Part shown: positions 4,192 to 9,560 of the stretch, one piece after another
Layout: each line of letters opens with the position of its first letter
Position numbering within the stretch: position 1 is the first letter of the stretch
Origin: a virus
IMG/VR virus record: IMGVR_UViG_3300020439_000009
Span: 1-49,890 of that record
Strand: one strand, 5' to 3'
Length of the DNA stretch: 49,890 bases
The notes under the pieces: generated by a model
Told to the model about the DNA's origin: nothing
Databases searched by the model: none
Seen by the model: the letters and a program-made list of their open reading frames with translations, nothing else
Made by a program: the position numbers and the translations under genes

Positions 4192-4368
4192 TTAATCAAA
4201 ATCACGAATTGCTCGATTATTCCTATCACTTCTTGTACGCTCTTTACGAGGCCTATTGTCATGGGCACCAGTACCAGTCTTATGTGGCTGATGGCCGATT
4301 GACACATTGATGCCTGAAGCCTTGATGACCACTTTGAATTCGCCTTTTTTCTTATTCTTCTTGCTCAT
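4192..4368 (-). CDS. Small basic hypothetical protein (58 aa)
   Basis: 58-aa product rich in Lys/Arg (MSKKNKKKGEFKVVIKASG... RPRKERTRSDRNNR). The composition suggests nucleic-acid binding. Its start lies 17 nt inside the end of 4352-4750, so translation is probably coupled. Family not recognised. Confidence 0.55.
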   Translation of the reverse strand: MSKKNKKKGEFKVVIKASGINVSIGHQPHKTGTGAHDNRPRKERTRSDRNNRAIRDFD

Positions 4369-4750
4369 AGTTCGGAAACCTCACACTTGCTTCTGCTGTG
4401 TACAACACCGACATACATGCCAGCCACAACATTGTTTCTCTGTCGGTCAACTCAATTAGATATTCTCGAGCCATTAAATTGCGAATCTCAATTAACCGCA
4501 CAGGCCTCGCGCCGTCGAACTCGAATTCATTTTTCCCGACACCGACGACTATTTCATCACATTCTTGGCAAATTGACTCTGTCCGACGTAATGTGTCGAT
4601 TAAGGTGACATCATTCCAAGAATCCAAATCCTGTAGCTTTTCCTTGAATCTCTTTGACAGGGATTGATAGGTTACGGATTCCACGTCACTTACTTGAGCC
4701 CAAGAGGACTCAAACCACTCGTTCAATTCTGCTTTTTGCTCTTCGTTCAT
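4352..4750 (-). CDS. Hypothetical protein (132 aa)
   Basis: Acidic, largely helical 132-aa product with 'SICQECDEIVVG', a CxxC pair near residue 78. The start is well defined: the AGGAG SD is the 3' edge of hairpin copy 3, so the hairpin sits directly on the ribosome-binding region. No family recognised. Confidence 0.7.
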   Translation of the reverse strand: MNEEQKAELNEWFESSWAQVSDVESVTYQSLSKRFKEKLQDLDSWNDVTLIDTLRRTESICQECDEIVVGVGKNEFEFDGARPVRLIEIRNLMAREYLIELTDRETMLWLACMSVLYTAEASVRFPNYEQEE

Positions 4751-4756
4751 TCTTCA

Positions 4757-4872
4757 CTCCTGAGCCGCTTTGTTCTCGTGAGACGGGCGAACGAGAACAA
4801 AGCGCCTCGTTTTACCCAAACTAATCTCCGAAGCTCCCTGCCGGTGAAAGGATAAGGCCGACAGGGAGCTGG
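4757..4872 (-). repeat. Tandem hairpins, copy 3
   Basis: First hairpin AGCTCCCTGTCGG/CCGGCAGGGAGCT (about 4830-4872). Second has 14-bp arms CGCTTTGTTCTCGT (4766-4779) and complement (4791-4804), loop TTCGCCCGTCTCA on the minus strand, flanked by GGGTAAAACGAGG. The SD of the gene at 4750 begins right after the second stem. Confidence 0.78.
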
Positions 4873-4884
4873 AGAAAACACGTT

Positions 4885-5485
4885 TATAGTCCGCCGACTA
4901 ATACCGCACACGGGACTTGCACCCGTTCCGCAGGGTATGCAGCCTACGGGACACTATGCAACGGCACGACCACCTGTTCTCAAACGGACGCCTAGTTCTC
5001 AACCGAGAGGCCGTCCACAAGTCCTTTGTCACTTCCTCGCTTCTATTTCTTGCCGCCAGCGTACACGGCTTACCATTGCGTCAAAACGTTAAAACCGCAA
5101 TAGGAAAGTTCAAAGCCACAAAGCCACATCGGGCAAGGGTCTGGATTTTATAAGTGTCTTACCACTTCGGTAAATTGGTGACTTGAAGGGGAATCAAACC
5201 CCTAACCGATTGCATGATGATGTTGACCTTTAGCTCGGTCAGTGTATCCGTGAATACCTTTGCTGCTGAGAGGTTCACTTCGTGTCGTCATATCATTGCT
5301 GGGCAATTAAATCCGTCCCAACAAAAAAACATCTTCATGGCTAATCAATCGGCACATCAGTCAAGCCATTGTATTAAAAGTGGTGTGCGGTAGCCACTCC
5401 GCATAAATCCTAAATTGTCCTACCAATCCTGTCACCCGAAGGTGCGACGAAGGCTTACACTGGACACCAGTACGGCTTACGCCGT
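4885..5485 (-). ncRNA. Putative large structured RNA with tRNA-like end (~600 nt)
   Basis: No convincing gene lies in this 600-nt stretch, but the minus strand is packed with helices. At the 5' side are ACGGC-GTAA-GCCGT (5472-5485, GNRA loop), ACTGG-TGT-CCAGT (5459-5471) and CACC-TTCG-GGTG (5433-5444, UUCG loop). A 10-bp stem TACCGCACAC (5383-5392) with GTGTGCGGTA (4902-4911) encloses the rest. Inside lies a 192-nt tRNA-like unit (5176-5367): acceptor GGCTTGA/TCAAGTC, a 12-nt helix with one mismatch (5328-5339 with 5213-5224), GCCGATTG/CAATCGGT, a 17-nt T-arm with 7-nt loop TTTGATT, then A-CCA. Further hairpins occur at 5073-5103 and 4986-5016, and a terminal TAGTC-GGCG-GACTA at 4887-4900. 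GOLLD- or ROOL-class phage RNAs and tmRNA are the nearest known concepts; identity is unproven. Confidence 0.6.
5176..5367 (-). ncRNA. tRNA/tmRNA-like domain within the large RNA
   Basis: Minus-strand 5' GGCTTGA (5361-5367) pairs with TCAAGTC (5180-5186), which is directly preceded by the T-arm AGGGG-TTTGATT-CCCCT (5187-5203). It is directly followed by discriminator A and CCA (5176-5179). D- and anticodon arms are replaced by a long interrupted helix, the tmRNA topology. No mRNA-like tag frame was found, and position 56 of the T-loop is T instead of C. Confidence 0.5.
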
Positions 5486-5878
5486 TTGGGCTTTCTTACT
5501 TCGGCGACCTAGTGCTGACTTTAGCCGCTTGATAAAACCCCTCTTGGATTTCTCTGGTCGGTAGTACAGCATCATCATTCTGCCATCGTAGAATGTTTGA
5601 ACCGTACCGTCGTCAGCTTCCACTGTGTAGAGGAACCGTGAACGGCGACCCTTGATATTACCATAAGCGATAGTTCGCTCACTTAATGGATGCTCGTCCA
5701 AGTCACGAACATCGGTAATTGTGCCAGCATATTGTTGTGCTGACTTAGTGTAGTCGGTGTACTGCATGTTGTTCTTTTCGCTGAACTCATGCTCGATTTC
5801 CTTCATGTAGTTAAATCGAACGTAATCACCAACTTGTAATTCTTTGCTTGTATTCATGTTTTCTCCTAAAAAAAGCAA
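5477..5878 (-). CDS. Hypothetical protein (133 aa; probable start 5857)
   Basis: The open frame begins at 5878, but the T-run/AGGAG leader points to the ATG near 5857 (MNTSKELQVGDYVRFNYMK...), giving about 126 aa. The N-terminus 'LQVGDYVRFNYM' and the 'RRSRFLYTVEADDGTVQTFYDGRMM' segment look like a small SH3-like beta-barrel. The C-terminus is basic (KSKRGFIKRLKSALGRRSKK), suggesting nucleic-acid binding. It is driven by the strong promoter at 5891-5919. Its last codons overlap the first hairpin of the structured RNA, so the RNA may be processed from this transcript. Confidence 0.68.
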   Translation of the reverse strand: MLFLGENMNTSKELQVGDYVRFNYMKEIEHEFSEKNNMQYTDYTKSAQQYAGTITDVRDLDEHPLSERTIAYGNIKGRRSRFLYTVEADDGTVQTFYDGRMMMLYYRPEKSKRGFIKRLKSALGRRSKKAQTA

Positions 5879-9489: not shown

Positions 9490-9560
9490 CTCAAGCCGCT
9501 TAGTTGTCGTGATACGGGCGAACGACAACTAAGCGCCTCGTCCTACCCGACCTATGTCAA
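9490..9560 (-). repeat. Intergenic hairpin, copy 7
   Basis: 14-bp perfect arms CGCTTAGTTGTCGT (9497-9510) and complement (9522-9535), loop TTCGCCCGTATCA type, flank GGGTAGGACGAGG. A mini-hairpin CCTAT-TGAC-ATAGG lies just upstream on the minus strand. The SD of 9479 begins right after the stem. Confidence 0.78.

Follow-up and report, generated by a model that had tools for sequence, protein, structure and literature searches.

tmRNA is described as combining an acceptor formed from both ends of the molecule, a T-arm, a stemless reduced D-loop, a long disrupted helix and a pseudoknot (PMC3968760). Complete tmRNAs are known in phages, and the two-piece forms are reported mainly from marine or aquatic phages (PMC9004378). 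Mycobacteriophage DS6A carries a tmRNA described as consisting of the tRNA-like domain (TLD) only (PMC4131195). A molecule similar to the DS6A RNA is said to inhibit tmRNA strongly, perhaps by titrating SmpB (PMC4131195; PMC11915505, the latter naming E. coli). Viral tRNA mimicry is also combined with a pseudoknot at the 3′ end of TYMV, as outlined in PMC4810234. GOLLD and ROOL are presented as structured phage RNAs found near tRNA islands, with GOLLD often exceeding 800 nt (PMC12286853).

Here, we describe an RNA gene of a marine tailed phage that shares its tRNA-like ends with tmRNA and carries a different body. It belongs to a family of RNAs of ~150-195 nt, of which seven copies in seven contigs are compared below. 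Judged from the aligned copies, both the family and the structure proposed for it are very probable. No published description of the family was found among the open-licence PMC papers searched.

Genomic location

The RNA is encoded in a 49,890-base virus record, analysed in full and hereafter called the window. The record is that of a tailed phage whose terminase matches a PHROG terminase and whose best relatives among annotated phages are distant (~25% identity). Its genes lie on the minus strand to the left of ~12.9 kb and on the plus strand beyond that point; from gene content, we infer that the minus-strand set comprises early genes and the plus-strand set late genes. The RNA gene spans 5367-5176 on the minus strand, as do all features of the window RNA given below. 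It occupies a 726-nt minus-strand gap between an ORF of 133 aa (5477-5878) and one of 132 aa (4352-4750), the latter of which returned no relatives when used as a search query. Downstream of the RNA region, a terminator-like hairpin (4838-4877, minus strand) can be read in the sequence and has a relative in contig L001 by blastn; it is absent from the list produced by the terminator scan. A repeated hairpin, GAGGCGCTT...AAGCGGCTT, occurs at 4767-4803 and 9498-9534 of the window and also in L119/L120, L109 and L105, and in the window and its relatives it is placed just ahead of several early-gene starts.

The tRNA-like ends

The initial annotation had proposed a tRNA or tmRNA mimic at 5367-5176, and the geometry it described is exact. 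The acceptor pairs GGCTTGA (5361-5367) with TCAAGTC (5180-5186) through 7 bp, six of them Watson-Crick and one G-U, and is retained in all seven copies. Between the acceptor and helix P2a lies a reduced D-loop equivalent without a stem, CTGATGTG (5353-5360). The T-arm, AGGGG-TTTGATT-CCCCT (5187-5203), has a 5-bp stem that co-varies and a 7-nt loop, with zero nucleotides between the T-stem and the acceptor. The discriminator A (5179) is followed by an encoded CCA (5178-5176).

In six homologues, from phage contigs L106, L001, L128, L139, L105 and L150, compensatory changes preserve the acceptor and T-arm, which upholds the proposal of tmRNA-like geometry. Both acceptor strands are altered in L105 (GGCGTGA/TCACGTC) and in L139. 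Every copy has a 7-nt T-loop that carries U54, A58 and a purine at position 57. Acceptor and T-stem together form 12 stacked bp in six of the seven copies, divided as 7+5 in the window and L105 and as 6+6 in L106, L001, L128 and L150. L139 reaches 12 bp only with one bulged U in the acceptor; counted without the bulge, its acceptor has three Watson-Crick, two G-U and two mismatched pairs. The L139 T-arm is identical, letter for letter, to the tmRNA consensus T-arm (a 17-nt local match to RF00023, E 5.1e-4). The initial annotation had expected homologues to keep both the acceptor pairing and CCA. The pairing is indeed kept in all of them, while CCA is encoded in only three copies (window ACCA, L106 GCCA, L150 GCCA), and the remaining four end in GCCT, ACCT, GCCC and ACTC. 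NCC is thus present in six of the seven, and CCA could be added post-transcriptionally to the copies that do not encode it.

The elbow letters are more variable. C56 and the D-loop GG are both present in L106, L001 and L139 and both absent in the window and L128; L150 has C56 without GG and L105 has GG without C56, so that the two agree in five of seven copies. Pair 3-70 is C-G throughout, so the alanine determinant G3-U70 is missing from all seven copies.

A local hairpin, ATGGCT/AGCCAT, could compete with the acceptor. Six copies can form 5-6 of its 6 pairs, and L105 three. Its AGCCAT lies just downstream of the acceptor 5′ strand, with which it pairs. The acceptor is favoured on the compared sequences, because L105 retains it via a two-sided change yet loses the hairpin, and because AAGC is used by the pseudoknot described below.

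The body and its pseudoknot

The order of parts is the same in all seven copies: acceptor, short D-loop equivalent, P2a, zero or one base, pseudoknot strand, P2b, junction, P3, P4, P2b′, P2a′, T-arm, acceptor′ and discriminator. In the window, P2a pairs CCGATTG (5346-5352) with CAATCGG (5212-5206) through 7 bp, and P2b pairs CATGAAGATGTT (5328-5339) with AACATCATCATG (5224-5213) at 11 of 12 positions. The initial annotation had the D and anticodon arms replaced by an interrupted helix. That helix is present, but the description was incomplete, as the body also contains hairpins and a covarying pseudoknot. P3 (GTGAA...TTCAC, 5250-5278) co-varies in both sequence and length and is followed by P4 (GACC/GGTC, 5225-5240). 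A further hairpin, GTTGGG...CCCAGC (5298-5322), is shared with L139 only, where it reads GTTGGG...CCCAAC.

The pseudoknot, which the earlier reading did not contain, consists of 5 bp between a strand bulged from the long helix (TTAGC, 5340-5344) and the loop of the inner hairpin P4 (GCTAA, 5234-5230). It co-varies: the window has TTAGC:GCTAA, L106, L001 and L150 have TAAGC:GCTTA, L128 has TAAGT:GCTTA, L139 has AAAGC:GCTTT and L105 has TAGTC:GACTA. For all five strand types, no other partner pairs better than the strand's own. The chance that a 5-mer finds 5/5 partners in an 8-nt loop is ~2.9% when G-U is allowed.

Two strands flank P3, namely ACGACACGAA (core strand 1, 5279-5288) and GGATACACT (core strand 2, 5241-5249). 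The first is identical in six of the seven copies and the second shares GGATACA in the same number, making ACGACACGAA and GGATACA the most conserved unpaired letters of the family; L105 lacks both strands. At the position of core strand 1, ACGACACGA (5288-5279, minus strand) may be complementary to a conserved stretch of 16S rRNA near position 1065.

Comparison with tRNA and tmRNA models

A cloverleaf with an anticodon arm is absent, which places the RNA outside the canonical tRNAs. ARAGORN, which the initial annotation had suggested running, calls no tRNA or tmRNA in the window and no tRNA at the homologue copies examined. The suggested covariance-model check returns zero Rfam matches at gathering thresholds in the window and no relevant match at E <= 10 in 4600-5600. 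For L106, L139 and L105, Rfam gives nothing relevant beyond the tmRNA T-arm in L139 and a weak TYMV-type match in L106. An ordinary tRNA or tmRNA is ruled out by ARAGORN and by these sub-cutoff scores. The earlier observation that no tag-peptide frame is visible is supported by the family, as no frame is common to all seven copies. A 12-codon frame is readable in L106, L001, L128 and L150, ending in the amino acids GTA-stop or GAA-stop inside the P4 loop. The window, L139 and L105 have lost this frame, and in L001 a stop lies upstream of it. Since no tag frame is conserved, the RNA is not an ordinary tmRNA.

Homologues and covariation

L106 and L001 were first found by sensitive blastn among fetched loci through matches to the 3′ half, and alignment by eye revealed the whole layout to be common to both. 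L128 and L139 came from an IMG/VR scan for ACGACACGAA...GGATACAC that yielded 21 stretches. L128, L138, L139 and L141 were kept (two of them already-known contigs), and the other 17 were set aside by eye as unrelated, outside the search with the covariance model. This model, R1, was built from L106, L001 and L128 only, leaving out the window copy. In 584,359 bases, it recovers the window copy with 57.2 bits (E 5.9e-11), L105 as a new copy with 36.5 bits (E 4.4e-6) and L139 with 29.1 bits (E 2.3e-4). L150 (159.7 bits) comes from the 11 stretches of a further scan, four of which were known and seven run against R1. R1 found no new member over a further 606,927 and 380,211 bases.

Cellular copies are absent among 52 genome stretches, all run against R1. 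Both weak matches among these stretches (E 0.014 and 1.1) are genuine tRNAs. In the further bases, a third weak match, L213 (E 0.42), was read by eye as a tRNA, and the fourth is L250 (E 1.3). A separate genome search with R1 missed L139 and L105, so its rows without a match carry little weight. Among 50,697 phage records, no isolated phage was matched by blastn with the window RNA, the L106 copy or L105 4358-4900 (element B and its neighbours) as queries.

The shared core comprises 32 pairs, or 224 cells over the seven copies, of which four are closely related to one another. Of these cells, 223 pair, and 24 of the 32 pairs change on both sides. In 2000 column shuffles, the means are 170 paired cells and 8.9 both-side pairs, with maxima of 185 and 16, and exchanging entire 3′ strands leaves no more than 180 cells paired. 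These counts refer to an alignment made by hand to fit the structure, in which the L139 acceptor is counted with its bulged U. An alignment of four copies by MAFFT gives 99.4% paired and seven both-side pairs, a score reached by 0 of 500 shuffles.

Other measures were taken on single sequences. T-arm, 7-bp acceptor and CCA occur in order in 2/60 and 2/100 shuffled windows; when a 6-bp helix immediately inside is also required, the count falls to 0/100. In a scan of 110 sequences (1,794,440 bases counting both strands), the 109 loci apart from the window contribute a single T-arm site with the CCA form, listed twice. For the fold of 5367-5177, z is -2.45 (3/200 shuffles equally good), and for the whole 726-nt gap it is -4.62 (0/20 shuffles).

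Neighbouring RNA elements

The initial annotation had also placed an outer acceptor module around the RNA. Its letters are present, namely a T-arm-like ACGGG-TGCAAGT-CCCGT (4926-4910) and a 10-bp match between TACCGCACAC and GTGTGCGGTA, but relatives do not support the pairing. The CCGC that GTGTGCGGTA would need forms a local pseudoknot with GCGG, part of a separate upstream element (element B, 5377-5466, minus strand) that lies outside the tRNA-like RNA. The outer module is not accepted because this CCGC pairs in the element B pseudoknot in all five copies, window included, and because L105 keeps that pseudoknot and has, by eye, no long-range partner.

Element B is 77% identical to L105 4374-4472 and has relatives in L107 (~2740-2866), L104 (~830-950) and L103 (~1330-1480). 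AAGCC...GGCTT is interleaved with GCGG/CCGC, GGGG/CCCC, GGTGG/CCACC or GATGG/CCATC, and the comparison indicates a small pseudoknot RNA, with pairs that co-vary, in several of the phages. A search with GGTAGGACNNTTTAGGATTTATG returned the L105 contig only.

On the other side, 5172-4890 (minus strand) reads as a structured domain that opens with a D-loop-like GAAGTGGTAAGA and includes the second T-arm, ACGGG-TGCAAGT-CCCGT. The second T-arm may belong to another RNA, and the domain is possibly another tRNA-like one. It has a weak TACCG/CGGTA reading, and an exact 25-mer of its T-arm gave zero matches. As a candidate second copy of the family, it was unmatched by R1.

Further elements recur in related phages. 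A conserved element, CTGGCGAG...GGATAAGCCAG, is found in L105 (4477-4574) and L122 (1397-1498, minus strand); it lies upstream of manA in one of them and downstream of it in the second. manA itself (RF01745) appears below threshold in 3 of the 25 records searched, including L105 (4587-4787; 31.1 bits, E 3.7e-6). manA-like stretches lie at ~1501-1668 of L122 and ~1367-1557 of L124, and L108 ~2451-2678 resembles the L105 stretch by blastn only. In L128 and L150 (minus strand), a second conserved RNA upstream of the copy ends in a T-arm-like hairpin followed by CTCACCA. A spacer AATACA (window 5379-5368; also L105, L107, L108, L128 and L150) precedes many RNA elements and could be a processing or promoter signal.

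Promoters and gene context

In L139, a TTGACA-16-TATAAT promoter (12/12) lies 12-14 nt before the acceptor, T8 follows right after ACC, and another 12/12 promoter follows T8. L106 has an 11/12 promoter 12 nt ahead of its copy. With these near-perfect promoters, the two copies look like stand-alone small RNA genes. The window copy follows element B, and the promoter scan reveals no convincing separate promoter immediately ahead of it; there, the RNA is therefore probably excised from a longer transcript. A window stretch beginning GGCTTGACTGATG was considered as a promoter and rejected: it has no -10 and is unlisted by the scan. TTGACA promoters in related phages have a GCCGAT spacer resembling this stretch.

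Other copies sit among RNA genes. L105 carries tRNA-Asp and tRNA-His ~380 nt downstream of its copy, forming an RNA/tRNA array, and in L128 and L150 the copy is preceded by two further stretches that look like structured RNA. Positions 1-62 of L001, immediately ahead of its copy, read by eye as a tRNA truncated by the contig end, for which ARAGORN makes no call.

Possible functions

The RNA probably acts in trans. The best explanation, in which our confidence stays slightly below even, is that a pseudoknotted phage RNA family with a tRNA upper half acts in trans as a mimic for the translation machinery. In the corresponding mechanism, the RNA would be transcribed singly or in tRNA/RNA arrays, its 5′ end would be trimmed by RNase P and its 3′ end finished as for tRNA. 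Acting in trans, it would occupy part of the host tRNA/tmRNA machinery (SmpB, EF-Tu or the stalled ribosome), and the core strands would give further contact. Host ribosome rescue would thereby be blocked or diverted during infection, either turned off or put to the use of the phage. That the decoy or diversion concerns, within the translation machinery, most likely ribosome rescue is suggested by the DS6A precedent together with phage tmRNAs; by this analogy, the RNA is perhaps a decoy like the TLD-only RNA of DS6A, and trans-translation as its specific target is a tentative proposal. It is likewise doubtful, though conceivable, that the family constitutes a new class in marine tailed phages, a messenger-less tmRNA mimic with a pseudoknotted effector body that enters stalled ribosomes or titrates SmpB/EF-Tu.

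The main rivals are a stability role of the tRNA-like ends and a defence decoy. The ends may serve only as a maturation or stability device, the real function residing in a pseudoknotted core that binds a protein or RNA of the phage or host. The conservation of ACGACACGAA and GGATACA in six of seven copies, while elbow letters and CCA drift, speaks for such a division, but L105 retains acceptor, T-arm and pseudoknot with neither core strand. The tRNA-like part thus outlasts the core, and we consider this reading unlikely, if deserving of real weight. Alternatively, the RNA might act as a decoy or substitute in a tRNA-directed host defence, absorbing tRNA-cleaving or -modifying enzymes and sparing the real tRNAs. 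Phage tRNAs are proposed to counter anticodon nucleases (PMC10264068), and the copies of L105 and, by eye, L001 are found within or close to tRNA genes. However, the RNA has no anticodon arm, the very part that anticodon nucleases cut, and a defence decoy seems rather unlikely.

The remaining readings have low probability. One is that the RNA controls the following gene in cis, as a leader or a riboswitch-like element. In its favour, the RNA occupies gaps ahead of early genes, and manA-like elements, considered to be cis-regulatory, occur in related phages. The downstream gene, however, varies among copies, and in L139 the RNA runs directly into T8, beyond which lies a further 12/12 promoter, which makes a leader improbable. 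That the RNA is a true tmRNA in minimal form, with a short tag frame, is, if anything, more improbable still. Its tRNA-like ends, long helix and the 12-codon frame of four copies are set against the loss of the frame in the window, L139 and L105, the upstream stop in L001, the absence of G3-U70 and the lack of a tmRNA call in the window by ARAGORN or at the Rfam gathering threshold. Chance pairing could be entertained for a single sequence, given that the pattern without the inner helix arises in 2/100 shuffled windows, but six homologues with covariation leave it hardly any credit.

If the RNA does act as a mimic for the translation machinery, it raises a testable question, namely whether phages block or redirect trans-translation by RNA; the TLD-only RNA of DS6A is the sole phage precedent that we met in the accounts consulted (PMC4131195; PMC11915505). 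The family would add to DNA phages a group of tRNA mimics missed by standard tRNA, tmRNA and Rfam searches. Its pseudoknot and 12-bp acceptor/T stack could furthermore provide a natural probe of the parts of tRNA that are read by the processing and rescue machinery.

Relation to known systems

As a structured RNA of marine phages, the family resembles manA RNA (RF01745), which has zero matches in the window record and is unrelated in sequence. GOLLD and ROOL are likewise structured phage RNAs near tRNA genes, but they are much larger, have other folds and find no Rfam match in the window. The plant-virus TYMV-type elements (RF00233) share tRNA mimicry combined with a pseudoknot and a GUGCAA-type T-loop, and L106 gives a weak Rfam match to them (E 1.8; 13.3 bits against a gathering threshold of 40). 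They reside in the 3′ UTR of RNA genomes, whereas the RNA described here is internal to a DNA phage contig.

The likeness to tmRNA (RF00023) is more extensive. All seven copies have a tRNA-like domain with an acceptor made from both ends, a T-arm and a reduced D-loop, and the long disrupted helix formed by P2a and P2b, which co-varies in the seven copies, lies beside this domain as H2 does in tmRNA. In contrast to tmRNA, family members measure 150-195 rather than 230-400 nt, have C3-G70, are devoid of a conserved tag frame and do not score above the Rfam cut-off. PK1, which in tmRNA lies between H2 and the messenger part, and the further pseudoknots of tmRNA have no counterpart; the single pseudoknot here instead connects the loop of an inner hairpin with a strand bulged from the long helix. 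The RNA of DS6A, to which the family is likened by description, is also a phage-borne tRNA-like domain without a messenger and is the source of the proposed mechanism. While DS6A has little beyond the TLD, the RNAs described here carry a body of ~100 nt with its own conserved core.
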